From Nitrospira sp. (GTDB lineage Bacteria; Nitrospirota; Nitrospiria; Nitrospirales; UBA8639): a stretch of DNA of 59,440 bases. The stretch is taken from the NCBI GenBank assembly GCA_011523385.1, contig WTGX01000003.1, positions 1 to 59,440 of the forward strand. The letters run 5' to 3'. The stretch's first letter is position 1. The number at the start of each line of letters is the position of its first letter. A program made the position numbers and the translations under genes. Of the stretch, positions 85 to 49,403 are shown piece by piece. The notes below the pieces were generated by a model. That model saw nothing but the letters and a program-made list of their open reading frames with translations. It ran no database searches and was not told where the DNA came from.

Positions 85-3000
85 ATGTCTCCCCACCGCG
101 TCTGCAAGCCGCCGCCTGGGCTCATCAACTTCTCCGCTGAGTCCGCTTCTTCCGCCGACAGTTTCGATTCCGTCCCGGCCCGCACGACTTCGGGCGTCCA
201 TCCAGTCGCCCGCCATCTGCGCCGCGGCCTTCTCCCGGCACTGCTCTGCCTGCCGTTGATTGCCGGGCTGGCGACCGAAGCCGCCGCGCAGAGCGCGACA
301 GTTTCGATAGCGCAGGGACTAAATACTACGAATCCAGAGGACCCCACGAGCGATGGTGCCACATTCAAACTTCGAGTATCGCCTACGCACAGTTCAGCGA
401 TACCTTACAAAGTCTGCTTTACCAGCTCGCTGGCCACTCCCAGCTTTATAGCCGATAGAGGCCTCCATTCAATTTCCCTCGACGCTCAGGGGTGTACGAC
501 TGGCGAAATTGCAGCAGGGACCACTGGTCTCGATTTAAAGATCTACGGAACCGACGACACCCTCGACGAGCCCGACGAGGTGGTGACGGCGACGGTCTCG
601 GCGGACCCGAACAACGCGCTCCCCGCCGGGGTGAGCATCTCGTCCACCGCCAACACCGCCACCGTCACCATCCGCGACGACGACCCGACGGTGGTGCGCC
701 TGGCGCGTAGCGGCGGCACCGGCGCCATCAACGAGGGCCAGACGGTGGAGCTCACGGTGACGCTGGGCCGCGCGCTCATTGCGGGCGAGATCATCGACGT
801 GCCGCTGTCGATCAGCGGCCCGGGGGTCACCATCGCCGACTGGATCCTCGCCAGGAAGTCCGGCACGAACCTCAACACCGGCGTCAGCCTGCACGGCACC
901 AGCACCGGCCTCTGGGTGCGCTTCTCCGGCGCGGGCGCGCGGGTGGCGACGCTCAACCTGGAGGCGGCGGGCGACAACGTCGCCGAGGGGGGCGGCTCGG
1001 AGACCGTCACCGTGGCGCTCGGCGCGAACTCGGCCTTCGACCATTCGAGTCGCCGCACCAACGTGGGCGGCGGCGCGGACCCGAGCGGCACGGCCTCGGA
1101 GCGCAGCTTCAGCGTCCAGGTCAACGACGCGACCGTGACCGCCGCGGTGCCGGTCGTCAGGGTCGAGGTTCCGACCGTCACCGAGGGCGAGACCGTCAAC
1201 GCCAGGCTCACCCTGAGCCGGGCGTCGACGGAACCGGTTCGTGTCCTGGTTAACGGCGCCATCTTTTCCACCTGCGATCTCTGCCCGACGGGCACGGCCC
1301 CGGCGAGCGGGTCGGACTTTACGAACACCAGTGTTCTCGTCACGTTCGCCCCCGGCGTTACGACCAAGACCGTGTCGTTCCCGACCAACGACGACGGCGC
1401 GGTCGAGTCGACCGAGGTCTTCGCGGTTATTCTTGCCGATCCGGCCGGCGCATTGGGGCTGGGCACCAAATTCACGGTTGACCCGGCCACGCCGCCCGAT
1501 GGCGTCAACAGGAGCTACCCCTACTGGTTCGCCCGCATCGAGGACAACGACACTCCGACCCTCGCCACCATCTCGAAGGGGTCGCTGCGCATCGTGGAGA
1601 CCGGCAGCGGAACCTACACGGTGGCGCTCGCCACCCAGCCGACGGCCGCTGTGTCGGTGTCCATCGCGAGGGGCGGCACGGACGCCGCTGCGGCCGCGAC
1701 CCAACCGACCTTTCTCGTCTTCAACCCCAGCGGCGCCAACCTCTGGAGCACCGCGCAGACGGTGACGGTCACCGGGGCGGACGAGTCGGGGACACACCGC
1801 AACCGTGCGCTCACCCTCGCCCACAACGCGACCTCGACGGATTCGACCTACAACGGCGTCAACCTCGGCACCGTCTCGGTGGAGGTGGCGGACGCGCCGG
1901 TGGTGGAGACGTACGACCCGTGGGGCTCGTACTTCGTCCGCTCGGGCCGGGAGAACGAGCCGGACCCGCTCATCATGACCTCGCCCAGGCCGATGTCGTA
2001 CAAGTACAAGCTGCGCCGGGACCTGTGGATGGGCGGGCACGGGCTGGGACCGGGCAACAGGCTCGACTACGCCGTCCGGGCGTCGAACGCCCCGGTGGGC
2101 GGGCCGATCACGGTGACCGCCACGGTGCCGACCACGCACAACGACCGCAACGAGGTGGGGCTGGCGCTGACCCCCGACGGTACGCCGCAGGACTCGGTCA
2201 CCTTCACCCTCTCGAACCGCCATCCGCAGAACAACAGCTGCGACGCGGACCGCGCGGACGGCAACACCGACCTCTCGTGGGCGTGCAGCATGGACGTGTT
2301 CGTGGTGCGCAAGTCCGCGGGCAACCAGAGCGCCTGCGCCAACATCCAGCACACGGTCACGGGCGGCGGGGTGCGCGCCTCGGACAACGACTACCTCGTC
2401 CTCCGGGCCCAGCTCCCGGCGACGGGCTACGAGAAGACGGGGGTCTGGTACCCGTGCCAGAAGCTGAACTGGGAGGGCTGGCCGTGGATCACGCCGCAGA
2501 TGGCGGCCTCCCGCGACAGCGGCAAGCCGGTGCACAGCGAGGAGAGCGGCGTCCCGGGCCTCGACCTGCCGCCGGTGACGCTGCCGAACGCGGCGACGCC
2601 GGTGGATGAGGGCACGACCGCCGGCATCGCCATCGACCTCGGGCGGGCGCTGAAGAAGGGCGAGCGGGCGGAGCTGGAGCTGGCCTTCTCCGGCGCGACG
2701 CCGGGGACGGACTACACGCTCGCGCTCGTGGCGGGCAAGAGCACGGGCGTGACGGTCAAGCCTGGCGCGCCGCTCACCGGGGCGACGCCGGTGCTGGCGT
2801 TCGCCGAGGGGGCGCGCACCGCCGAGCTCACGCTGACGGTGCTCGACGACACGGTGTACGAGGCGGAGATGCTGACCGTCGCCTTCGGGGAGCTGCGCCA
2901 CATCGTGGATGGCCTGGAAGACCGGGTGACGACGCCGGAGGGCAGCCTGCGCTACGCGCTGCTCGACAGCACCGGCCCGCCCTTGACCATCACGCGGCTG

Positions 3001-6000
3001 GCCGACGCCACTGTGGCGGAGAACAAGCCCTGGTCGGCCGAGCCGCTGCTGGAGGGGGTGACGGGCCGCGTCGCCTTCAGCCTCACCGGGGCCGATGCCG
3101 CGCGGTTCACCCTCGACGGCAAGACCGGGTCGCTGGCGCTGCCGGCGCAGGACTTCGAGGCGCCGGCGGATGCGAACAAGGACAATGTCTACGAGGCCAC
3201 GCTGACCGCCACCGACCCCGGCGGGACCGATGCGGTCGCTTTCCGGGTGACAGTGACCGACGTGGCCGAGGGGCAGACGACGGAGGCCGATCCGGCGGTG
3301 GTCAAGCTGGTCGAGGCCATGATCGTGCGCCACCGGGACGTGACGGGGAACACGGGCGCGCTCGCCAAGTGGCAGCAGGCGCTCAAGACCCTCAAGGGCG
3401 AGCCGGGCGGGTTCACGATCGCGGAACTGGAAGCGCAAGTCGCCCGCCTCTCAGGCACGCCGAAGCACCGCTGGCGGCGGGTGCTGGACGCGGTCAAGGC
3501 GATACAGGCCGGGGGCGGCAGCGGGACGGGCGCAACGCCCGCCACGCCGACGATCACCGTCGGGTCCGGGGCAGGCTCTGGCGCGGCGGTGACGGAGGGG
3601 ACCGCAGCAAGCTTTACCCTGACCGCGGACCCGGCGCCGAAGGCCGACCTGGCGGTGACGGTGAGCATCGGGCAGACGGGTAAGTATGTCGCCTCCCGCA
3701 ATCGCGGCGCCCGCACAGTGACCATCCCCGCGGGCGAGACCGCCGCCGCCTTCACGGTGGCCACCAAAGGCGACACGAAGGACAAACCGGACGGCGCGGT
3801 GACCGCGACGCTCGAAGCCGGTACGGGCTATACGGTGGGTGAGGCGGCCACGGCCACGGTGCCGGTGCGCGACGACGACGCGACCGGGGTGACGCTCTCG
3901 GCCGAGGCGGGCGATCTCGCGGAAGGCGCGGGGCGCAAGCTCGTGCGGCTGACGCTCGGCCGGAAGCTGGTGGTGCCGGAGGCGCTGACGGTCACGCTGA
4001 CCTTCGGCGGCACGGCGACGGTCGGGACCGACTACACACTCAGCCCCAAAGGGGCCAGCCGGCCGGGGGTGCGGTACGCGAACCTCGCCAGCGCCGACCC
4101 GGCAAAGCCGCCAACCGTCACCTTTACCGGCCCCTCGGCCAAGTCCGCGACGCTGGTACTGGCGGCGACCGCCGACAGCGCCCACGAAGGCGACAGCGAG
4201 ACCGTGACGGTGGGGCTCGGGACGCTCACGCCCACGGATCTCGGCGGCGGGGCCGAAGGCGCCGGCGCCGTGGCCTTCACCATCCTGGAGCCGCCGCCGG
4301 CAATCTCCATTGCAGCCAAGACCGCGTCCATCACGGAAGGCGCGGCGGCCACCTTCACGGTGACCGCCAGCCGGGCGCCGGAGGCCGACCTCCCGGTCAC
4401 CCTCACCGTGGCGGAGGCCGCCGGCAGTGACATGGTGGCCGCGGACAGCGAAGGCACGGCCACGGTGACGATTGCCAAGGGCCAGACCGAGGCCGCGTTG
4501 ACCGTACCCACGGTGAACGACACCCAGGACGAGCCCGACGGCACGGTCACGGCCACGCTCACCGCCGACGGCAAGGACGGAACCGCCTATATGGTGGCGG
4601 CTTCGCCGAAAGACGCCGCCTCGGTCACCGTGGCCGACGATGACGTAGCCAATGCCGTCACGCTCTCCATCGAGGACGAGCAGGTCCGGGAGGGCGACCT
4701 GTTCACGTTCCAGGTGGACCTCTCGGCCCCGGCGCCGCACGAGGTGCGGGTGAGCTGGCACACCGAGGCGGGCACGGCCAAGTTCGGGCACGACTTCGAC
4801 CTCGCCTCGGGCGCGCTCACGTTCCGGCCGGGGGTTGTGCGGCAGACCATTACCATCTTCACCATCGACGACCTCATCGACGAAGACCCGGAGACCTTCG
4901 AAGTGGTGCTGTCGAACGCGCAAGGCGCCACGATCGAGCGCGGGACCGCGACCGGGACCATCGTGAACTCGGACCCGATGCCCACGGCGTGGCTGAGCCG
5001 CTTCGGGCGCACGGTGGCGCAGCAGGCGTTGGACGGCATCGCCGGGCGCCTGACCGCGCCGCGCACCCCCGGGGCTCAAGGCACCATTGCCGGGCAGGCG
5101 TTCACCCATTCGACAAGCTCAGGGCAAGCCCATTCGACAAGCTCAGGGCAAGCCCCTTCGACAGGCTCAGGACAGGCGTTCGCGCCGGGGTCGGGCAACG
5201 CCGGGACCGGCGGCGCGACGAACATCAACACACCGGCCCTGACCCGGCAGGGGGCGCTGGCCCTGGCCCAGATCGCGCAGAGCTTCGGCGGGACCGTCAA
5301 CGGCTTCGAGGCTGACGGCTTTGGCCCGGCCGGGGTCGACGCGGACCGGGACCCGAGCGCCTGGGGCACGGGCGCCGGGACTCAGGCCACCCCCCTGACG
5401 CCGCGGGAGGCGCTGCTGGGCAGTCACTTCACGGCGACAGCCAGACCGGACGGCACCGGCGGCAGTCTCGCCTTTTGGGGCCGGGCGGCGCAGGCGAATT
5501 TCGACGGGCGGGAGGGCACTTTCTCGCTCGACGGCGAGGCCACCACGGGCTTGCTGGGCGCGGACTACGCCCGGGACACGTGGCTGGTGGGCGTGACGCT
5601 CCTGCGGAGCCAGGGCCGGGGCGGCTATCGCGACACGGACGTCACCCCCCGACCCGGGACTCACACCTGCCCCGGCGCGACCGGGCCGGTGTGTCGCCAG
5701 GCCGTGCGCGAAGGCACCGGCACGATCGAAGCGTCGCTGACCGCGGCGGTGCCCTATGCCGCCTGGGAGGCGTCAGAGCGGCTCAAGCTCTGGGGCGCGA
5801 CGGGTTACGGCGCCGGGGAAGTCAAGCTCCGGACCCACACCGGCCAGGCGCTCGCAACCGACATCGACTGGACCATGGCCTCGGCGGGCCTGCGGGGCAA
5901 CTTGCTGCCCCAACCGGCCAAAAGCGCCGCGCCCGCGGCACTGGCGCTGACCTCGGACGCGCTATGGGCGCGGACCACGTCGGACAAGACGACGGAACTG

Positions 6001-6672
6001 GCCGCGGGGGACTCCACCGTCACCCGGCTGCGGCTCGGACTGGAGGGGAGCTACCGTGTCGCGCTCGACGATGGGGGCCAGTTCACCCCTAAGTTGACGC
6101 TTGGGGCGCGCCATGACGGGGGGGATGCCGAGACCGGCTTCGGGGTGGAACTCGGCGGCGGCCTCGCGTGGAGCGTCCCGGCGCTCGGGCTGGCCCTCGA
6201 CCTCGAGGGCCGCACCCTGCTGACCCATGCCGCGGACGACTTCGAGGACCAGGGTTTCGCGGCGTCGCTGGTCTTTGACCCCGCCCCGGCGACGCAGCGG
6301 GGCCCATCGGTCAGCCTGCGCCAGGACTGGGGCGGACAAGCCACGGGCGGCCTGGATGCGCTGTTCGCCTCGAACCCGCTGGCGCAGCGGGCGGGGAGCG
6401 GCAATGCGACGAGCCGTTGGGCCGCGGAGGCGGCCTGGGGCTTCCCGGCCTTTAGCGGCCGGTTCACCGGCAGCCCGCATGCCGGGCTGGGCCTGGCCAC
6501 CGGCACCCGCGACTACCGCCTGGGCTGGCGCCTCACGCCGATGGAGAACGCACCCGCCCTCGCCTGTGACCTTTCCTGCAACCTCTCCTTCGGCCTCACG
6601 GCGACCCGGCGGGAGACCGACGTGGCTCAACCGGAACACACGATCGGGTTCGAGGTCGGGGCACAGTGGTGA
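85..6672 (+). CDS. Giant Calx-beta / cadherin-like autotransporter (outer-membrane beta-barrel protein)
   Basis: The product has 2195 residues. A long basic N-terminal stretch (about 1-45) precedes a hydrophobic segment (about 48-63) and an AAAQ-type cleavage site near residue 70, which looks like an extended signal peptide. The passenger carries about eight Calx-beta-like modules, recognised by EG(x) starts and DDD or DND ends, at roughly 71-200, 203-350, 355-490, 491-610, 828-965, 1156-1267, 1269-1402 and 1406-1632. Also visible are an unrecognised Cys-containing block (612-820), a cadherin-like module (970-1060) and a helical insert (1070-1145). A linker (1633-1785) leads to a C-terminal barrel of about 410 residues ending in an aromatic residue (GAQW), typical of type V secretion. 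ATG 85 is the first start after two in-frame stops (19-21, 28-30) and has a weak AAGG upstream. The base composition is much more GC-rich than the rest of the window, which suggests transfer or strong compositional divergence. The likely role is surface adhesion; the ligand is unknown. Confidence 0.85.
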   Translation: MSPHRVCKPPPGLINFSAESASSADSFDSVPARTTSGVHPVARHLRRGLLPALLCLPLIAGLATEAAAQSATVSIAQGLNTTNPEDPTSDGATFKLRVSPTHSSAIPYKVCFTSSLATPSFIADRGLHSISLDAQGCTTGEIAAGTTGLDLKIYGTDDTLDEPDEVVTATVSADPNNALPAGVSISSTANTATVTIRDDDPTVVRLARSGGTGAINEGQTVELTVTLGRALIAGEIIDVPLSISGPGVTIADWILARKSGTNLNTGVSLHGTSTGLWVRFSGAGARVATLNLEAAGDNVAEGGGSETVTVALGANSAFDHSSRRTNVGGGADPSGTASERSFSVQVNDATVTAAVPVVRVEVPTVTEGETVNARLTLSRASTEPVRVLVNGAIFSTCDLCPTGTAPASGSDFTNTSVLVTFAPGVTTKTVSFPTNDDGAVESTEVFAVILADPAGALGLGTKFTVDPATPPDGVNRSYPYWFARIEDNDTPTLATISKGSLRIVETGSGTYTVALATQPTAAVSVSIARGGTDAAAAATQPTFLVFNPSGANLWSTAQTVTVTGADESGTHRNRALTLAHNATSTDSTYNGVNLGTVSVEVADAPVVETYDPWGSYFVRSGRENEPDPLIMTSPRPMSYKYKLRRDLWMGGHGLGPGNRLDYAVRASNAPVGGPITVTATVPTTHNDRNEVGLALTPDGTPQDSVTFTLSNRHPQNNSCDADRADGNTDLSWACSMDVFVVRKSAGNQSACANIQHTVTGGGVRASDNDYLVLRAQLPATGYEKTGVWYPCQKLNWEGWPWITPQMAASRDSGKPVHSEESGVPGLDLPPVTLPNAATPVDEGTTAGIAIDLGRALKKGERAELELAFSGATPGTDYTLALVAGKSTGVTVKPGAPLTGATPVLAFAEGARTAELTLTVLDDTVYEAEMLTVAFGELRHIVDGLEDRVTTPEGSLRYALLDSTGPPLTITRLADATVAENKPWSAEPLLEGVTGRVAFSLTGADAARFTLDGKTGSLALPAQDFEAPADANKDNVYEATLTATDPGGTDAVAFRVTVTDVAEGQTTEADPAVVKLVEAMIVRHRDVTGNTGALAKWQQALKTLKGEPGGFTIAELEAQVARLSGTPKHRWRRVLDAVKAIQAGGGSGTGATPATPTITVGSGAGSGAAVTEGTAASFTLTADPAPKADLAVTVSIGQTGKYVASRNRGARTVTIPAGETAAAFTVATKGDTKDKPDGAVTATLEAGTGYTVGEAATATVPVRDDDATGVTLSAEAGDLAEGAGRKLVRLTLGRKLVVPEALTVTLTFGGTATVGTDYTLSPKGASRPGVRYANLASADPAKPPTVTFTGPSAKSATLVLAATADSAHEGDSETVTVGLGTLTPTDLGGGAEGAGAVAFTILEPPPAISIAAKTASITEGAAATFTVTASRAPEADLPVTLTVAEAAGSDMVAADSEGTATVTIAKGQTEAALTVPTVNDTQDEPDGTVTATLTADGKDGTAYMVAASPKDAASVTVADDDVANAVTLSIEDEQVREGDLFTFQVDLSAPAPHEVRVSWHTEAGTAKFGHDFDLASGALTFRPGVVRQTITIFTIDDLIDEDPETFEVVLSNAQGATIERGTATGTIVNSDPMPTAWLSRFGRTVAQQALDGIAGRLTAPRTPGAQGTIAGQAFTHSTSSGQAHSTSSGQAPSTGSGQAFAPGSGNAGTGGATNINTPALTRQGALALAQIAQSFGGTVNGFEADGFGPAGVDADRDPSAWGTGAGTQATPLTPREALLGSHFTATARPDGTGGSLAFWGRAAQANFDGREGTFSLDGEATTGLLGADYARDTWLVGVTLLRSQGRGGYRDTDVTPRPGTHTCPGATGPVCRQAVREGTGTIEASLTAAVPYAAWEASERLKLWGATGYGAGEVKLRTHTGQALATDIDWTMASAGLRGNLLPQPAKSAAPAALALTSDALWARTTSDKTTELAAGDSTVTRLRLGLEGSYRVALDDGGQFTPKLTLGARHDGGDAETGFGVELGGGLAWSVPALGLALDLEGRTLLTHAADDFEDQGFAASLVFDPAPATQRGPSVSLRQDWGGQATGGLDALFASNPLAQRAGSGNATSRWAAEAAWGFPAFSGRFTGSPHAGLGLATGTRDYRLGWRLTPMENAPALACDLSCNLSFGLTATRRETDVAQPEHTIGFEVGAQW
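5107..5178 (+). repeat. Three in-frame 24-bp repeats inside the autotransporter linker
   Basis: There are three consecutive 24-bp units at 5107-5130, 5131-5154 and 5155-5178. The first two are identical and the third differs at a few positions. They encode HSTSSGQA, HSTSSGQA and PSTGSGQA (residues 1675-1698), directly before the barrel-proximal part of the protein. The DNA core (TTCGACAAGCTCAGG) is the same as that of non-coding repeats at 6711-6735 and, inverted, at 7005-7035. So this is a dispersed DNA repeat that has entered a coding region in an open frame. Confidence 0.9.
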
Positions 6673-7135: not shown

Positions 7136-7181
7136 AGGGGGAGCTATGTCGCACCACGCGCGGTCGCAGGAGGGCATCGCC

Positions 7182-8723
7182 ATGGTGAACCGGTATTATC
7201 AGGGGTTGAGTGAGTTCCATTGCTATGCCACGCGGGTGACGACCGGCAGCATGCGCCTTTGGGTGGGGACGCTGGAGCGGGACATGCACAAGCCTGCGAA
7301 AGCGCGGGTGCGCTTGTGCGATGGTTCCGGCCGCCAAGTCAGGGTGCGACCGATCCGGCATGCCGACTGGGAACGTCCGTTTCCCGCTACGTCACAAGAT
7401 CGTTTCTACAAGAGCTTCACCTTCAAGGGGTTGAGGCCGGGCAGGATTTATCGCGCCTGCTTCGAGCGGTGGCGTGCCGACGTGAAGGCTTGGGAAATCC
7501 TCCGCTCCGCGAGTATCCGCACGCTGCCCAAACGGCTGCCTTTGTCCACGTCGCGCGCCAAACCCTTCACCATCGCCTTGGGGAGTTGCTATTGGCCGGA
7601 CCAGGACGGGGGTCGCGTGGGTACGGCATACCGGGGGTTGTATGACCACCCCGCAGATCCGCACGACAGCCCGGATCTGACCTTTCTCACCGGCGACCAG
7701 GTGTATCTGGACGTCGGGTTCGATCTGCGCTCCAGGGTGCCCAAGGAAGTCCGTCGCCGGATCGCCCGGGACTATGCCCGCCACTGGCAAGGTCTCAGCG
7801 ACGTGTTGACCCGCGGGGCCACCTACATGCTGCCCGACGATCACGAGTGGTACAACGGCTTTCCTGATCCCGATCCCGGGAATCCGTACCTGTGGGCCTT
7901 ACGGGACGTGAAGGTACGCAAGGCCTGGGAACAGGCGGCGCGTCAGGGTATCGTGAACGTTCAACAATGTCCGGTCGTGGAGATCATGGCGTTCCCGGGT
8001 GATCTCAGTATCTGCTTCGCCGATCTGCGGTCGTATCGTGAACCGAAGCAAGGCGGCCTGATGAACCCGAAGGACCTGAAGCGCGTGCTGGCTTGGGCCA
8101 ATGGGCTCACGACTCCGGGGGTGCTCGTGAGTCCCCAGCCCTTGATCGTCACCGGGAACCCTCACGAAGCCAACCTGCTCGACTACACGGAAGACTATTG
8201 CCGATTGCTCGCGGCCCTGGGAAGTACGGGGCACGATATTGTCGTCATGAGTGGCGACGTCCACTACGGCCGCGTGGTGAGCGTGAAGCTGGGCGCCCGG
8301 GGCGCTACGTTGTATGAAGTGGTCTCCTCGCCGCTCTCGAACCTGACGTATCTGAATGCCTGGTTCGCCACCAACCGGAACCGTTTGACTCCGAAACAAT
8401 TTCCCGACCCACGCGCGTTCAGCCACCCACGGGGTAAGCAGACCCTATCAGACTGGAAGCCCCGGACAGTCAATCATTATCTCAACAAGACACGGGACGG
8501 TTCGAGGTACGCCATAGGCCACAAGACCAGTTGGCGTCAGTGGGTCTACCCGGGCACTCGCACTCGCGAGCATTTTCTGACCATCGCCTTCTCCCGCTAT
8601 GGCGACGGCTCCGGTATCCGAATGACGGTCAAAGGCTGGCTGGTCCGGGACGTGGACCTCGACGAACGGCGCAAGCGAATCCTGCCCCAACGGGCCTTTC
8701 GGTTTTCGCGGAAACTGACCTGA
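7182..8723 (+). CDS. PhoD-like metallophosphatase (alkaline phosphatase D family)
   Basis: The protein has 513 residues and the metal-site motifs of the PhoD/metallophosphoesterase superfamily: GSCYW near 133, LTGDQVY near 172, DDHEWYNG near 219 and SGDVHYG near 358. A beta-rich N-terminal domain precedes the catalytic core. Family members hydrolyse phosphomono- or diesters using Fe/Ca or similar metals. No signal peptide or twin-arginine motif is visible, unlike classical secreted PhoD, so a cytoplasmic location is possible. The start at 7182 is preferred because AGGAGGG lies at 7168-7174 with 7-nt spacing. An in-frame ATG at 7146 would add 12 residues but has no ribosome binding site. The exact substrate cannot be told. 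Confidence 0.85.
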   Translation: MVNRYYQGLSEFHCYATRVTTGSMRLWVGTLERDMHKPAKARVRLCDGSGRQVRVRPIRHADWERPFPATSQDRFYKSFTFKGLRPGRIYRACFERWRADVKAWEILRSASIRTLPKRLPLSTSRAKPFTIALGSCYWPDQDGGRVGTAYRGLYDHPADPHDSPDLTFLTGDQVYLDVGFDLRSRVPKEVRRRIARDYARHWQGLSDVLTRGATYMLPDDHEWYNGFPDPDPGNPYLWALRDVKVRKAWEQAARQGIVNVQQCPVVEIMAFPGDLSICFADLRSYREPKQGGLMNPKDLKRVLAWANGLTTPGVLVSPQPLIVTGNPHEANLLDYTEDYCRLLAALGSTGHDIVVMSGDVHYGRVVSVKLGARGATLYEVVSSPLSNLTYLNAWFATNRNRLTPKQFPDPRAFSHPRGKQTLSDWKPRTVNHYLNKTRDGSRYAIGHKTSWRQWVYPGTRTREHFLTIAFSRYGDGSGIRMTVKGWLVRDVDLDERRKRILPQRAFRFSRKLT

Positions 8724-8794
8724 GCGCCGGTCGGATTTCATACGCGCCGGCCTGCCGGCGCAGGCGGTGTGCCAATGGCGAGCCCTCCAGTGTC

Positions 8795-8823
8795 TTGACC
8801 CCTTCGAGAGGCTGGGCTATTCT
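8795..8823 (+). promoter_or_regulatory. Sigma-70-type promoter for pup
   Basis: TTGACC (8795-8800), a 17-nt spacer and TATTCT (8818-8823) lie 43 nt upstream of the pup start codon. The short untranslated leader, together with the terminator at the end of pup, suggests a monocistronic transcript. Confidence 0.6.
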
Positions 8824-8866
8824 ATCCATGAGGTGCGTATCTCCTTGAAAACCGGGAGGAAAGGCC

Positions 8867-9064
8867 ATGGAAAAGCAGGAACGGAAATCCGGGGCAGCTG
8901 GAAATTCCTCACAGGCTCAGGAAGTCAAGCCGAATCCTCAGGTCATTGAAAGCGGCAAGAAGCTTCAGGAAGACATCGATCAGTTGGTCGAGGAGATCGA
9001 CGAGGTCCTGGAAGAGAACGCCGCCGAGTTCGTCAAGAATTACGTTCAGAAAGGAGGAGAATAG
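8867..9064 (+). CDS. pup: Prokaryotic ubiquitin-like protein Pup, C-terminal Gly-Gly-Glu
   Basis: The protein has 65 residues. The N-terminal half is polar and disordered-looking. The C-terminal half is strongly helical and acidic and matches the conserved Pup region that binds the proteasomal ATPase: QLVEEIDEVLEEN followed by AAEFVKNYVQKGGE. In the family, the C-terminal Glu side chain is ligated to substrate lysines by PafA. Versions ending in Gln must first be deamidated by Dop. Here the codon is GAA (Glu), so no deamidation step should be needed. GGGAGGA at 8854-8860 gives a strong ribosome binding site. No pafA, dop, mpa/arc or 20S proteasome genes are in the window, so pup is physically separate from its partners. 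The nearest genes are an unrelated phosphatase and recJ. Confidence 0.93.
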   Translation: MEKQERKSGAAGNSSQAQEVKPNPQVIESGKKLQEDIDQLVEEIDEVLEENAAEFVKNYVQKGGE

Positions 9065-9086
9065 CTCCTCTTTCCTTTCTTTTTTC
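9049..9086 (+). terminator. Intrinsic terminator overlapping the pup stop codon
   Basis: GAAAGGAGGAG (9049-9059) pairs with CTCCTCTTTC (9065-9074), with one bulged base and a loop (AATAG) that contains the TAG stop. A pyrimidine/T-rich run (CTTTCTTTTTTCC) follows. The stem therefore includes the codons for the final Gly-Gly-Glu of Pup. Confidence 0.6.
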
Positions 9087-9163
9087 CGCCGCCGTTTTTT
9101 GTTTCACCAGTACAGTGTGGCCGGAGCATCGGCGAGTCCGGGTCGTGTGCGCGGCCTTTTCGT

Positions 9164-9192
9164 TTGACTCTCATTGGGTCGGTTTCTAAGAT
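9164..9192 (+). promoter_or_regulatory. Sigma-70-type promoter for recJ-rel
   Basis: TTGACT (9164-9169), a 17-nt spacer and TAAGAT (9187-9192) end 44 nt upstream of the preferred recJ start. The promoter overlaps the longest possible reading frame (TTG at 9174), which argues against that early start. Confidence 0.65.
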
Positions 9193-9236
9193 CGTTGCTG
9201 TTTTATGGGTCTTCCACTACCGGTGAATCTGCGCGT

Positions 9237-10937
9237 ATGACGATGCAATCCTCGAATTGGCGGGTACGGTCGGTCGATCAGCAACAGGTCTCGGCCCTGG
9301 CCGGAGCCCTGGGTGTTTCGCCGCTGGCGGCGACGGTCTTGTGTGGCCGCGGCGTGGTCGAGCCGGAGCAGGCCAGGGCCTGGCTTTCCTCTTCCGGCGG
9401 CTTGACCCATGATCCGTTCGCGCTGCCGGACGTGGAACGGGCTATCGACCGGCTTCATCTGGCCATTCAACGCGGAGAACGGATCTGCTTTTACGGGGAC
9501 TATGACGTTGACGGGATGGCGGCCACGAGCCTGCACTTCCTGTTCTGGCGAAGCATGGGCGCTCAAGCCGAGGCCTATATCCCTCACCGGCGGGAGGAAG
9601 GATACGGCCTTCATGAAGGGGCTATTCGGAAACTGGCCGGGCGCGGCGTTTCCCTGTTGCTCACTGCAGACTGTGGCACCACCTCGTACAAGGAGATCGA
9701 ACTCGCCCGGTCCTTGGGCATGGACGTCATTGTCACCGATCATCATCAGCTTCAATCCCGTATGCCGGAGCCGGTGGCATTCATCAATCCGTATCGACCG
9801 GATTCCGCCTATCCATTTCGTGGGTTATGTTCCGGCGGCTTGGCCTACAAGGTGGCCGAAGCTTTTGTGCAGAAATACCGGCCCGCGGGCGCGTCGGTGG
9901 AGACCTACCGTGACCTGGTGGCGTTGTCGTCCATCGCCGATTTGGTTCCGCTCACGGATGAGAACCGGACCCTGGTCCGGGACGGGTTGGTCCAGGTGGC
10001 TCAAGGCACGCGCTGCGGGATCCGGGCGTTGACCCGGGATCTTGGCCTGAACGGGACGTGTTCAGCCGGCACGATCGGGTTTCGCGTGGCCCCGCGTCTG
10101 AATGCGGCTGGGCGATTGGCCCATGCCGAGTTGGGTGTCCGGTTGCTCACCACGGAGTCCGAACCCGCGGCACTTCAACTCGCCCAGGAATTGGAGAACC
10201 TGAACCGCCACCGGCGAGAGATTGAAGAGGAGATGGCGCGTGAGGCGATTGCACAAGTGGACGCCGGGGACCCGCAGCCCGCGATTGTGGTCAGTGCGAA
10301 GGGGTGGCATATTGGAGTGATCGGCATCGTCGCGGCGCGGTTGGTGGAACGCTATCACCGGCCTGCGGTCGTGGTGACGTTCGACGCGCTGGGGATCGGC
10401 AAGGGATCGGTCCGGGGCGTGGCCGGCTTCGACGTGTGTCGGGCCTTGCAGCAATGCGAACCGGATCTGGTGACCTTCGGCGGGCATCCCATGGCCGCGG
10501 GTCTCACGGTCAGGGAGGAAGCGTTTGCCGGGTTCAAACGCCGGTTTGGGAGAGCCGTCGAGGGCTTGCTGGAGGGCGAACATCTGGTTGCCGGCGTGGA
10601 CGTGGATGCAGAGGTTGGGCTTGCCGCGGTCCAATTTCCCCTGATTCGGGAATTGGAGCGCCTGCAACCTTTCGGCACGGGTAATCCCGAGCCGACCTTT
10701 GTGAGTCGAGGGATTTCGGTGCTGGAGAAACGCGTGGTCGGGGAGAGTCACCTGAAGTTGCTCCTTCGCCAGCCCGGGTCCGTTCCTCTGGACAGTATCG
10801 GGTTTCGGATGGGAAGCTTGGCAGACACAATCGATGCGGGCAACGGGCGGATCGACGCGGTGTTCACTCCCGAGTTGAATGAATGGAAAGGGTCAAGCCG
10901 CATTCAACTCCGGCTGCGTGACGTCCGGGTAGGGTGA
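9237..10937 (+). CDS. recJ: Single-stranded-DNA-specific exonuclease RecJ
   Basis: The protein has 566 residues from ATG 9237. It belongs to the DHH phosphoesterase family: the YGDYDVDGM motif is near residue 88, TADCGTT near 145 and VTDHH near 168. The DHHA1 domain is recognised by GWHIGVIGIVA and by GGHPMAAG near 415, and a C-terminal OB-like region follows. RecJ degrades 5'-ended single strands in recombination (RecFOR) and mismatch repair. An ATG at 9243 is an equally plausible start; no strong ribosome binding site marks either. The gene is followed after 16 nt by rel, so the two are probably cotranscribed. Confidence 0.95.
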   Translation: MTMQSSNWRVRSVDQQQVSALAGALGVSPLAATVLCGRGVVEPEQARAWLSSSGGLTHDPFALPDVERAIDRLHLAIQRGERICFYGDYDVDGMAATSLHFLFWRSMGAQAEAYIPHRREEGYGLHEGAIRKLAGRGVSLLLTADCGTTSYKEIELARSLGMDVIVTDHHQLQSRMPEPVAFINPYRPDSAYPFRGLCSGGLAYKVAEAFVQKYRPAGASVETYRDLVALSSIADLVPLTDENRTLVRDGLVQVAQGTRCGIRALTRDLGLNGTCSAGTIGFRVAPRLNAAGRLAHAELGVRLLTTESEPAALQLAQELENLNRHRREIEEEMAREAIAQVDAGDPQPAIVVSAKGWHIGVIGIVAARLVERYHRPAVVVTFDALGIGKGSVRGVAGFDVCRALQQCEPDLVTFGGHPMAAGLTVREEAFAGFKRRFGRAVEGLLEGEHLVAGVDVDAEVGLAAVQFPLIRELERLQPFGTGNPEPTFVSRGISVLEKRVVGESHLKLLLRQPGSVPLDSIGFRMGSLADTIDAGNGRIDAVFTPELNEWKGSSRIQLRLRDVRVG

Positions 10938-10953: not shown

Positions 10954-13143
10954 ATGTCGGTGACCAGCGTGATAGAAATCGATGATTTGGTCCGGGAGGT
11001 GCAGAGTTGTTATCCGGACGCCGATGAGGCCTTGCTCCGGCGCGCTTATGAGTTCTCCGCGAGGGCGCATGAGGGGCAGACTCGCCGGTCCGGCGAGCCG
11101 TATTTGCAACATCCGCTGGCCGTGGCCGGCATTTTGACCTTCCTCAAGCTGGACGTGACTGCCATCGTAGCCGGGCTTCTCCACGATACGTTGGAAGATA
11201 CCGTGGCGACTCAGGAAGAGTTGCAGACGCATTTCGGGGATGAGGTCGCGCACCTCGTGGAAGGGGTGACGAAGATCGGTCAAATCCCGTTCCGGACGTA
11301 TGAAGAGAAACAGGCCGAGAATTTCCGGAAGATGCTGTTGTCGATGGCTGACGACATCCGGGTGGTCTTTATCAAGTTGGCCGACCGTTTGCATAACATG
11401 CGGACGCTGGGCCATTTGCCGGAGAGAAAGCAAAAGCAGATCGCCCAGGAGACCCTGGAAATTTATTCGCCGCTGGCCAACCGGCTGGGCATGAGCGGGA
11501 TGAAACAGGAACTGGAAGATTTGTGCTTTCAGTACCTCAAGCCCGAAGCCTATTCCATGTTGAAGCTTCGGGTGGCGAAACGGGATGAGGAACGGCAGGA
11601 TTACGTCCAGTCGATCATTCAGGAGACGGTGGATGCGTTGGCCAGGGCCGGGCTGCCCGGTCGGGTGGTCGGACGCCCCAAACATCTGTACTCCATTCAT
11701 CAGAAAATGGAGAGCCAGGGCATTACATTCGAGGAAGTGCACGACCTGGTGGCGATTCGCGTGATCACCGACGCCAAGATCAATTGTTATACGATTCTCG
11801 GCGTCGTGCATGAAGCCTGGCCGCCGGTGCCCGAGCGTTTCAAGGATTACATCGCCACGCCGCGCACCAATCTCTATCAGTCGCTGCATACCACGGTGTT
11901 GGGACCGCAGGGCGATCACGTGGAGTTTCAGATTCGCACGGAAGAAATGCATCGTCTTGCCGAATATGGAGTGGCGGCGCATTGGCGGTACAAGGAGCAG
12001 GTGAAGGTCGACGAGCGCGACGAGAAGGTCTTCAGTTGGCTCCGGCAATTCGTGGAATGGCACCGGGACCTGTCCGACAATCGCCAGTTCATGGATTCCG
12101 TCAAACTCGACCTGTTTCACCTGGACGTCTTTCACGACGTGGTCTTCGCGTTCACGCCAAAGGGAGAGGTCAAGGAACTGCCGCTCGGTTCCACGCCGGT
12201 GGATTTTGCCTATGCGATTCATACCCAGGTGGGGGACCGGTGCGTGGGGGCAAAAGTGAGCGGAAAGATCGTGCCCCTGCGGCAGGAGTTGGCCAGCGGT
12301 GATACCGTGGAAATTCTCACGTCGCCGACTCAGGTCCCGCAGAAGGAGTGGTTGAAGTTCGTTCAGACGTCCCGCGCGCGGGCGAAGATCAAGCATTACC
12401 TGAAAGGCGAAGAGCAAAAGCAGGGGTTGGAATTGGGACGTCGATTGCTTGAACGCGAATTTCGCCGGCGGCAACTCCCATCCGCGCAGTGGTCCGAATC
12501 AGACCGGCTGTCCCAGGTTGCGGGCAAGCGTGGCTATGCATCCGTCGAGGAGATGATCCGGATGGTGGGCTACGGGCATCTGTCCGCCGGGCAACTGGTC
12601 AATTGGCTCGTGCCCGGCGGGGACACGGCGCAAACCGGCGATCCCGTTCGGGGGACACCCAAGGCGGCCCCGGCCCAGAGCCCGGTGAAATCGGTGAAGG
12701 TCATGGGCGGGCGTGACGCATTGATGCAGTTGTCAAAATGTTGCGCGCCGGTTCCGGGTGATCCGATCCTGGGCTACCTCACCCGAGGCCGCGGGCTCAC
12801 GATTCATGCCAAGGGCTGTCCCAATCTCGAGACCATGGATTATGAAAATGATCGCCTGGTTGAAGTGGAATGGGACACGATGGTCGATGAACGGCACTTG
12901 GTCAAGGTCTGCGTGTTGACCTTTGATCGTCCCGGCGTGCTGGCCAACGTGTCGTCAGCTATCGCCGCTTTCAAGGCCAACATCAGCCGCGCGGAAATTA
13001 CGACTCGCGAAGATCGAAAGGCGGTTCTGGACTTCATGATCGAAATTTCCGATACCCGCCACCTCGAACTCGCGCTCGAAGGCATCGGGCGGGTGGATGG
13101 CGTCATCTCAGCCAAACGCGTTCGGGAATGGGAACATTCGTGA
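10954..13143 (+). CDS. rel: Bifunctional (p)ppGpp synthetase/hydrolase (RelA/SpoT homologue)
   Basis: The protein has 729 residues with the full long-RSH architecture. An N-terminal HD hydrolase carries an intact HDTLEDT motif near residue 77. The synthetase domain (about 230-360) shows RPKHLYSIHQKM and EFQIRTEEMH. A TGS domain (about 397-460) is followed by a helical region and then a C-terminal ACT domain (about 653-729). The synthetase carries RFKD, the RxKD signature usual in bifunctional enzymes rather than the acidic ExDD of monofunctional RelA, so both activities are expected. The stringent alarmone would act on the rRNA and ribosomal-protein transcription encoded just downstream. GGAGAG lies shortly before the ATG. 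The gene converges on the DUF192 gene with a 5-nt gap. Confidence 0.95.
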   Translation: MSVTSVIEIDDLVREVQSCYPDADEALLRRAYEFSARAHEGQTRRSGEPYLQHPLAVAGILTFLKLDVTAIVAGLLHDTLEDTVATQEELQTHFGDEVAHLVEGVTKIGQIPFRTYEEKQAENFRKMLLSMADDIRVVFIKLADRLHNMRTLGHLPERKQKQIAQETLEIYSPLANRLGMSGMKQELEDLCFQYLKPEAYSMLKLRVAKRDEERQDYVQSIIQETVDALARAGLPGRVVGRPKHLYSIHQKMESQGITFEEVHDLVAIRVITDAKINCYTILGVVHEAWPPVPERFKDYIATPRTNLYQSLHTTVLGPQGDHVEFQIRTEEMHRLAEYGVAAHWRYKEQVKVDERDEKVFSWLRQFVEWHRDLSDNRQFMDSVKLDLFHLDVFHDVVFAFTPKGEVKELPLGSTPVDFAYAIHTQVGDRCVGAKVSGKIVPLRQELASGDTVEILTSPTQVPQKEWLKFVQTSRARAKIKHYLKGEEQKQGLELGRRLLEREFRRRQLPSAQWSESDRLSQVAGKRGYASVEEMIRMVGYGHLSAGQLVNWLVPGGDTAQTGDPVRGTPKAAPAQSPVKSVKVMGGRDALMQLSKCCAPVPGDPILGYLTRGRGLTIHAKGCPNLETMDYENDRLVEVEWDTMVDERHLVKVCVLTFDRPGVLANVSSAIAAFKANISRAEITTREDRKAVLDFMIEISDTRHLELALEGIGRVDGVISAKRVREWEHS

Positions 13144-13148
13144 GCGCG

Positions 13149-13694
13149 CTATTTCGGCAGTTCGATAGTGAGTTGGGTGCCGACACTCAGGTTCAGCGTC
13201 GCGGCTTGCCCCGCACCCAGTTCCAGGACCTGGACCGCAGCGGTTTTCGGCCGGTAGCGGGGACAGAGGTTGTCGGTTCTCGTGCAGATCGGGACATACC
13301 GTTCGATGTGAACGATGGTCCCGTCCTGGTCCAGCCATAGAATATCCAGGGGCATTTTGGTGTTCTTCATCCAGAACGTCCAATAGCCCGGCTCTTGAAA
13401 CTCCGGGAAGGTGAACAGCATGCCTCGATCCGGGGCCATGCGCGTTCGAAACATCAGGCCTTGACTCCGTTTGGCCGGCGTATCGGCGATTTCACAATAA
13501 ATCATGAGTCCATCGGGTGTCGAAACCGTGGCCAGCCCGCCTGAAAAACCGCCTGCCCCGGATGGTGGCGGCGCGGCGAACGCCAGGAGGTTTGTGCCCA
13601 GAATGAGGCAGGCCGTCAGGTGGAGGACCCGCCGGATGAATGCCCGTCCGGTCAGCGTCGAAGAAACCGGTTTCGGTCGTGTCATGGCAGCCAT
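13149..13694 (-). CDS. DUF192-family exported protein
   Basis: The protein has up to 181 residues. A basic N-terminus and a hydrophobic segment (HLTACLILGTNLLAFA) form a signal peptide. The mature part matches the DUF192/COG1430 fold: AKRSQGLMFRT, GMLFTFP, FWMKNTKMPLDILW and an IERYVP segment. The function of the family is unknown; members are small periplasmic or secreted beta proteins. A promoter on this strand (-35 TGTCAA, read as TTGACA, at 13717-13722; -10 at 13693-13698) would overlap the first ATG, so the second in-frame ATG (13685) may be the true start and nearly leaderless. The gene is divergent from the tRNA-tuf unit. Confidence 0.85.
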   Translation of the reverse strand: MAAMTRPKPVSSTLTGRAFIRRVLHLTACLILGTNLLAFAAPPPSGAGGFSGGLATVSTPDGLMIYCEIADTPAKRSQGLMFRTRMAPDRGMLFTFPEFQEPGYWTFWMKNTKMPLDILWLDQDGTIVHIERYVPICTRTDNLCPRYRPKTAAVQVLELGAGQAATLNLSVGTQLTIELPK

Positions 13695-18158: not shown

Positions 18159-19091
18159 ATGAAAAAGGAACAGAAATCGGCGGTGGTTTCCGATTTGCAC
18201 GAGAAATTCGCCAGGGCCCGGTTGGCCGTGGTGACGGAATGCGGAGGCATGCCGGTGAACCAGGTGACCGCGTTGCGCCATCAGCTTCGCGGCGCGCAGG
18301 CGGAACTGAAGGTCGTGAAGAATTCCCTGGCTGTCAGGGCTGCGGAAGGCACGTCGCTCTTGCCCGTCGCGTCGTTGTTTAAGGGGCAGGTCGCGGTGGT
18401 CATCGGCTACGATGATCCGGTGCTGCCCGCCAAGATTCTTCGGGATTTCATCAAGCACGAAAAATGTGACGAGAAGATCCTCTGGCGAGGGGGCGTGATC
18501 GAAGGAAAAACGCTTGACCCCGCCCAACTCATCGCAACGGCTGATTTGCCTTCCAAAGAGGTTCTGCTGTCGATGCTCTTGTCGGCGATGCAAGGGCCTC
18601 TTCGGGGAATGGCGGGAGTCCTTCAGGGAATTTTACGAGGATTTGCGGCTGTGCTGCTGGCGATCCAAGACAAAAAGAAAGGAGAAGGGGAAATGGCTGC
18701 AACGGAGGCGAAGCTTTCAAAGGAAGACATTCTGGGTGCCGTTGAAAGCATGACGGTGTTGGAGTTGTCCGAATTGGTCAAGGGATTCGAGGAAAAGTTC
18801 GGCGTGACGGCGGCGGCGCCGGTGGCCGTGGCTGCGCCGGCCGCGGGGGACGCGGGGGCTCAGGCCGCCGAAGAGAAAGACGCCTTTGACGTGGTGTTGG
18901 CCAGTGCGCCGGCCGATAAGAAAATTCAGGTCATCAAGGTGGTGCGCGAGATCACCGGGCTCGGGTTGAAAGAAGCCAAGGATCTGGTGGAAGGGGCGCC
19001 CAAGCCGGTCAAAGAAGGGGCGGCCAAGGACGAGGCGGAAACGATCAAGAAGAAGCTCACCGACGTGGGCGCCACGGTTGAAGTCAAGTAG
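18159..19091 (+). CDS. rplJ-rplL: 50S ribosomal protein L10 fused in frame to L7/L12
   Basis: This is one 310-residue open frame. Residues 1-178 are a complete L10: the rRNA-binding domain with [13 protein letters not shown] and [10 protein letters not shown], then the C-terminal helices that bind L12. No stop codon occurs before the ATG of L12 (18693). The join reads [11 protein letters not shown] then [10 protein letters not shown], and residues 179-310 are a complete L7/L12. Any ribosome that starts at 18159 should therefore make a fusion. An ideal internal site (AAGGAG at 18679-18684, 8 nt before ATG 18693) should also produce free L12. Normally the two are separate proteins in a 1:4 or 1:6 stalk. 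A sequencing error at a lost stop remains possible, but both halves are intact and in the same frame. Confidence 0.8.
18693..19091 (+). CDS. rplL: 50S ribosomal protein L7/L12 (internal start)
   Basis: 132 residues. The N-terminal dimerisation helices ([22 protein letters not shown]), an Ala-rich hinge (about 40-60) and the C-terminal factor-binding domain ending [14 protein letters not shown] are all complete. The perfect AAGGAG site at 8-nt spacing implies independent initiation and a high yield, as expected for the multicopy stalk protein. It is in the same frame as the upstream L10 with no stop between them. Confidence 0.9.
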
Positions 19092-48549: not shown

Positions 48550-48593
48550 GGGCCGCCGGGCCGTGGACCATCGTTGACCTGTTGCAGTCCGTC

Positions 48594-49403
48594 ATGGAGC
48601 ACTTCAGGATTTCCATCAATGAACAAGAGCGTTTTGTCCAGATGCCGTTGTTCGAGACTCCCATTAGTCACATCGGGAAGTCTGCTCGCCTTTCCGTTCA
48701 GGAATTGCGCAAAAGTTTCAAAGGACGGGATGCGGTGCGAGGTGTCTCGTTAGAAGTTGAATCAGGAGAAATTGTTGGGTTATTGGGGCCGAATGGAGCA
48801 GGAAAAACAACGATTTTCGACATGGTGGTTGGCCTTTGTCAGCCGGACCATGGCCAGATTTTCTTAAATCACGATCCGGTCACCGACCTGCCGATGTACC
48901 AGAGGGCCCGCCTGGGTATTGGCTACCTCCCCCAAGAAGCCTCCGTATTTCGCCGGTTATCCGTTCAAGATAATATTCATGCCGTTTTGGAGACCTTGGA
49001 CGTTTCCCGGGATGAGCGTCGAGAGCGCTTGGAGAGTTTATTGAACGAACTTGGGTTAGCCCATATTCGAAACAGCAAAGCCTTCACGCTTTCCGGCGGT
49101 GAGCGCCGCCGGTTGGAAATCACGAGGGCCTTGGCCACGACGCCTCGATTCTTGTTGTTGGATGAACCGTTTGCCGGAATTGATCCCATTGCGGTCGCCG
49201 ACCTCCAAAAAATCATTCAGTCCCTGAAAAGGAAAAACATCGGTATCCTGACGACGGATCACAACGTGCAGGAAACGCTTTCCATAACCGATCGGGCGTA
49301 TATCATTAATGAAGGAACGATCCTCGAGGCAGGCACGTCAGAAGCCATTGTCAGAAGCCCCAAGGTCAGAGAAATCTACTTGGGCGAACGTTTTCGGCTC
49401 TGA
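48594..49403 (+). CDS. lptB: LPS export ABC transporter ATP-binding protein LptB
   Basis: 269 residues. The Walker A is GPNGAGKTT, the ABC signature LSGGERRR, and Walker B FLLLDEPFAGIDP, with the D-loop and switch His (TTDHNVQ). It powers LPS extraction with LptF and LptG, which are not in this window. An N-terminal extension of about 30 residues precedes the usual domain start; ATG 48642 is an alternative that would shorten it, and no ribosome binding site decides the matter. Confidence 0.92.
   Translation: MEHFRISINEQERFVQMPLFETPISHIGKSARLSVQELRKSFKGRDAVRGVSLEVESGEIVGLLGPNGAGKTTIFDMVVGLCQPDHGQIFLNHDPVTDLPMYQRARLGIGYLPQEASVFRRLSVQDNIHAVLETLDVSRDERRERLESLLNELGLAHIRNSKAFTLSGGERRRLEITRALATTPRFLLLDEPFAGIDPIAVADLQKIIQSLKRKNIGILTTDHNVQETLSITDRAYIINEGTILEAGTSEAIVRSPKVREIYLGERFRL

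Follow-up and report, generated by a model that had tools for sequence, protein, structure and literature searches.

A pup gene in the window, the 59,440-nucleotide stretch of Nitrospira sp. DNA analysed here, is very probably the functional and only pup of a complete Pup-proteasome system, relocated next to recJ and relA in the ancestor of the order Nitrospirales and transcribed there from its own promoter. Pup is a small protein with which bacteria tag other proteins for the proteasome, and the Nitrospirales include nitrite-oxidising and comammox bacteria. Our reading draws on the gene and its partners, order-wide synteny, the donor and acceptor sites, trees with a single origin, promoter conservation and selection. 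The features of the locus are listed in Table 1.

Table 1. Features of the pup locus in the window
Feature	Position	Strand	Evidence and remarks
PhoD-like phosphatase gene, upstream neighbour of pup	7146..8723	+	PF09423 E 4e-4, below cut-off; synteny
Predicted sigma-70-type promoter of pup, TTGACC-17-TATTCT	8795..8823	+	Conserved in genus and order
pup	8867..9064	+	65 aa, ends GGE; PF05639 E 1.7e-19, TIGR03687
Intrinsic-terminator-like hairpin	9051..9073	+	5' arm formed by last pup codons, then T run
Further promoter-like site in the pup-recJ gap, TTGACT-17-TAAGAT	9164..9192	+	Weak, consensus match only
recJ (single-strand DNA exonuclease)	9237..10937	+	TIGR00644 E 1.7e-149
relA/spoT-type (p)ppGpp synthetase/hydrolase gene	10954..13143	+	TIGR00691 E 4e-233
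DUF192 gene, end of conserved pup-recJ-relA block	13149..13694	-	PF02643 E 9.5e-31; synteny

The product of the window gene ends in FVKNYVQKGGE (EFVKNYVQKGGE), and the C-terminal Gly-Gly-Glu/Gln that marks a Pup is present as GGE directly before the stop codon. Profile searches revealed matches to the Pfam Pup family PF05639 (70.9 bits, cut-off 27) and to NCBIfam TIGR03687 (54.5 bits, cut-off 41.45), and the protein could be aligned with crystallised Pup chains up to the final residue. These results agree with a first-pass annotation of the window, made from the letters alone, which had called a Pup gene ending in Gly-Gly-Glu. Comparison with congeners gave dN/dS values of 0.05-0.17, indicative of strong purifying selection, and at the amino-acid level the C-terminal 36 residues are almost unchanged (dN near 0). 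No known structured RNA was found around pup by Rfam. A plasmid-borne origin was considered and rejected, the sole match being distant and located on an 11.9 Mb Nonomuraea replicon. One divergent congeneric Pup (genome G022, loci L044 and L089) carries a short insertion right before the conserved tail (ALGENAVKENAAEFVKNNVQKGGE).

The first-pass annotation had reported no pafA, dop, proteasome or ATPase genes nearby and had proposed a search of the remaining genome, with Pup to be regarded as a relic if PafA and the proteasome were missing. Within the window we likewise found no pafA, dop, mpa or prc genes, and pup adjoins none of dop, pafA and prcB, an adjacency that describes arrangement and is not part of the biochemical definition. 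The search of the assembly (2.5 Mb, 38 contigs, rated 100% complete) identified every partner on other contigs. PafA (567.5 bits) and Dop (542.6 bits) exceeded their NCBIfam equivalog cut-offs of 551.3 and 492.3, respectively, and the Mpa/ARC ATPase (pup_AAA, 736 bits), PrcB (279.5 bits) and PrcA (302 bits) were over the cut-offs of NCBIfam models TIGR03689, 03690 and 03691. The genome thus encodes PafA and Dop together with Mpa/ARC and PrcA/PrcB, the components of a Pup-proteasome system. The best PDB matches of Dop and PafA were solved Dop chains and solved PafA, respectively, and the motif around an Asp that we take to be catalytic is intact in both (RLYVDGAHPEY, RFYQDTGCHPEY). The genes are distributed over three contigs, with pup on C9, dop-prcBA on C6 and pafA on C26. 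Contig C6 has the order mpa-dop-prcB-prcA with a dop-prcB gap of 48 bp; this gap and the single PF05639 match in the whole genome led us to reject a hidden second pup in the operon. A ParE-type toxin gene follows prcA on C6 (L009, 692-979). pafA and prcA lie on different contigs here (pafA at L010, 8561-9934), and in G007 and other genomes the full operon is contiguous, with pafA directly after prcA.

These data also bear on whether pup is a functionless leftover stranded away from its operon. The window holds no partner genes, and in one relative, G012, the pup at this position has decayed. Against this, all partners are present in the genome, pup is under purifying selection and both its C-terminus and its promoter are conserved. 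Moreover, the decay in G012 coincides with a ligase search that yielded only a weak match (E 8.7e-5); its pup ends in GRG and still lies beside recJ-relA. A further genome, G144, has no pup, and its two ligase homologs both lie in one UBact-type cluster. G012 and G144 can be regarded as natural controls that agree with retention of pup function. With the partners encoded and purifying selection evident, we reject the leftover reading as extremely improbable.

The detached position of pup, noted by the first-pass annotation as a lone gene, proved to be far wider in scope than that annotation had recognised, being order-wide, ancestral and syntenic with recJ-relA. We examined 147 Nitrospirales genomes, of which 140 had a Pup match and all 147 at least one Pup-ligase homolog, and read the surroundings of pup in 29 genera of four families. 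In all 29 genera pup lies immediately upstream of recJ-relA-DUF192 or, where there is no recJ, of relA; the exceptions are a few loci that end before the neighbour and L108, in which the neighbour is further off. Absence of recJ between pup and relA was observed in several genera (L053, L057, L087, L094-L097, L223, L225 and others), with the adjacency kept. The proteasome operon of the order has the form mpa-dop-prcB-prcA(-pafA), the usual dop-pup-prcB slot being without pup, and pup was likewise missing from 13 further operons of relatives. In complete genomes the distance between pup and the operon ranged from 47 kb to more than 1 Mb.

Outside the order the canonical arrangement prevailed. 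Among loci that cover the slot, sister orders of the same class have dop-pup-prcB in full at L152-159, with pup-prcB seen at L160, and other Nitrospirota classes share this arrangement (L161-167, L169-171, L190 and L191). So do Myxococcota with related MAGs (L110-115) and Actinobacteria (L116-151); in the outgroup locus L168 pup directly precedes a pafA-like gene. Nine outgroup genomes have recJ and relA adjacent without pup. Because outgroups show both the canonical slot and a pup-free recJ-relA pair, the donor site and the acceptor site are each seen in their earlier state.

Phylogenetic analysis placed the Nitrospirales operon as a monophyletic group in the Dop+PafA tree, within Nitrospiria whose pup is in the canonical slot; before rooting, the split between Nitrospirales and the rest is supported with UFBoot 100, and support labels shift after rerooting. 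The Pup tree also recovered the Nitrospirales as monophyletic (UFBoot 97). These trees allow the relocation to be weighed against a horizontal replacement, in which the operon lost its native pup and recJ gained an unrelated one as its neighbour. In favour of such a replacement, Pup is short, so its trees are weakly resolved, and the branching outside the order is not entirely clean. However, the Nitrospirales Pups form one group that matches the Dop+PafA tree, and on average they are most like those of sister-order Nitrospiria (55.8%, compared with 46.0% to Myxococcota and 36.0% to Actinobacteria). We consider replacement very unlikely, and the simplest reading of the sequences is that the native pup moved once, in the Nitrospirales stem, and would have descended vertically thereafter.

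The first-pass annotation had also assigned pup its own promoter and a terminator whose stem includes the last codons. Both are present in the window, and both recur in relatives. Scanning of positions 8600-9300 detected two promoter-like sites compared with 0.1 expected, and the motif TTGACC-17-TATYCT was retained in most of eleven aligned genus members while the flanking bases diverged. The relocated pups provided 60 distinct upstream regions, of which 28 contained a strict sigma-70-type site compared with 2.7 expected from first-order Markov shuffles, and 27 of these 28 read TTGAC[C/G]. The remaining 32 regions missed the strict criterion, and TTGAC[C/G] still occurred upstream in most of those sampled. 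The same scan of canonical outgroup pups gave 1/64, with 1.0 expected. The mpa operon has a separate promoter that differs from that of pup, usually TTGACC-17/18-TAGAAT. The pup promoters are predicted starts, based on consensus and conservation.

The hairpin at the end of pup is unexceptional when taken alone (fold z -1.24), and the same hairpin (AAAGGRGGAG...CTCCTCTTT) is found at the pup stop codon in seven of the eleven aligned genus members; in the remaining four, another inverted repeat occupies this position. Beyond the genus the hairpin is not conserved (20/77 compared with 8.6 expected), so readthrough into recJ-relA may occur in other genera. In the window's genus the conserved promoter and hairpin make pup look like a separate transcription unit, which favours the independent regulation of pup suggested at first pass.

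The company that pup keeps raises another explanation, namely that it is co-regulated with relA in the stringent response or with recJ in DNA repair, the tag following starvation or DNA damage. Synteny across 29 genera and the persistence of pup-relA adjacency where recJ is absent would fit such a link, as would the association of Actinobacterial pupylation with nitrogen starvation and the DNA-damage response (PMC8223512). Set against it are the promoter and, in the window's genus, the hairpin that belong to pup itself, as well as the greater age of the recJ-relA pair relative to the arrival of pup; the synteny may also persist by inertia. We judge co-regulation with these neighbours to be unlikely. 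On its upstream side, pup is preceded in 15 loci, which span the four families, by a membrane pyrophosphatase-like gene, identified by sequence motif. The window differs in having a PhoD-like gene in this position, and in the close relatives L042 and L045 the PhoD-like gene lies between an hppA-like gene and pup. For recJ the likely start is the ATG given in Table 1, which is common to most relatives; a longer frame opens with TTG at 9174.

To return to the relocation, we propose that pup moved in the Nitrospirales ancestor from the dop-prcB gap to just upstream of a pre-existing recJ-relA pair, where it would be transcribed from a housekeeping-type promoter of its own and, in the window's genus, closed by its own hairpin. 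Judging by family membership and conserved residues, PafA could ligate Pup directly to substrate lysines because the product ends in Glu, Dop would remove Pup and would also deamidate it in relatives with a Gln end, and Mpa would feed Pup-tagged proteins to PrcAB. The simplest idea of a purpose or effect is that supply of the tag may be set independently of the enzymes that tag and degrade.

Direct ligation of a Pup ending in Glu (PupE) requires no new route and is established knowledge. The first-pass annotation had inferred from the Glu terminus that Dop might serve only for depupylation. This may hold for the species studied here; however, it follows trivially from PupE and implies nothing special. 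At 90 Nitrospirales loci, which are partly redundant, 77 Pups end in GGE and 13 in GGQ, with Glu/Gln switches in several separate lineages of the order and a difference even between the related species at L091/L092 and L093. Given this repeated interchange, the Glu end is a routine state and does not denote a special Dop-free route, and we rejected a special meaning of this terminus. The deamidase role of Dop is presumably kept in the Nitrospirales. Corynebacterium glutamicum, like the window's genome, combines a PupE with a retained dop; in contrast, it has no proteasome and its pup precedes pafA (PMC3511204), whereas the genome studied here encodes the proteasome and has a detached pup.

What the first-pass account of pup had missed is a second tag-proteasome system in most relatives. 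This system, UBact (Lehmann et al. 2017, as cited in PMC12751074), was identified with NCBIfam model NF033388, which matched 106 of the 147 Nitrospirales genomes, 105 of them over the family cut-off. Neither the window's genome nor any of the 13 other genomes of its genus matched the model, and a UBact identity for the window gene was rejected. UBact genomes that we examined carry a second operon, mpa-dop-UBact-prcB-prcA-pafA (L175, L177, L178, L187, L189 and L221). The presence of UBact tracked ligase number, with 97 of 98 genomes that have four or more ligase homologs being positive and 36 of 40 that have two or fewer being negative. The two tags share an operon layout and differ in that UBact remains in its operon slot and ends in RTGE or RTGQ, whereas the relocated Pup ends in GGE or GGQ.

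Apart from the position of pup, the six components and their order are those of the Actinobacterial locus mpa-dop-pup-prcB-prcA-pafA, and the Actinobacterial system likewise has a conserved Pup C-terminus and catalytic Asp regions in Dop and PafA. The difference is that Actinobacterial pup lies between dop and prcB, while Nitrospirales pup lies beside recJ-relA with its own promoter. According to earlier surveys, pup invariably adjoins a pafA-family gene (Iyer 2008, PMC2588565) or lies upstream of prcBA or pafA (Barandun 2012, PMC3511204), and the Nitrospirales arrangement corrects the generalisation that pup is always beside a pafA-family gene. In the literature covered, mostly open-access papers, we found nothing on pupylation with recJ and no account of a Nitrospira pup away from its operon. 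The pup family is already known; the relocated arrangement is new in that we found no prior description of it.

Many Nitrospirales carry two complete bacterial ubiquitin-analogue/proteasome systems, and in all sampled genera one tag, Pup, lies far from its operon at a conserved position, where its own promoter can mostly be recognised. This offers a clean natural case for asking why a modifier and its enzymes are expressed together or apart, and it predicts that Pup is controlled separately from PafA and Dop. It is possible, if doubtful, that decoupling beside a (p)ppGpp synthetase gene, with a second UBact system present or past, placed tag supply under an independent growth- or stress-linked input.

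Three other features were observed. The outer membrane inferred at first pass is reasonable, as an lptB-like ABC gene (48582-49403) precedes rpoN in the window. In a single open frame at 18159-19091 (+), rplJ (L10) and rplL (L7/L12) are joined with no stop between them, and the frame contains an internal ribosome-binding site and an ATG at 18694; either L10 and L12 are fused, with L12 also starting internally, or a stop has been lost. Finally, two very large and related repeat-rich open reading frames of secreted or surface type were identified, one near pup (window 85-6672) and one near pafA (L010, 10187-14668).
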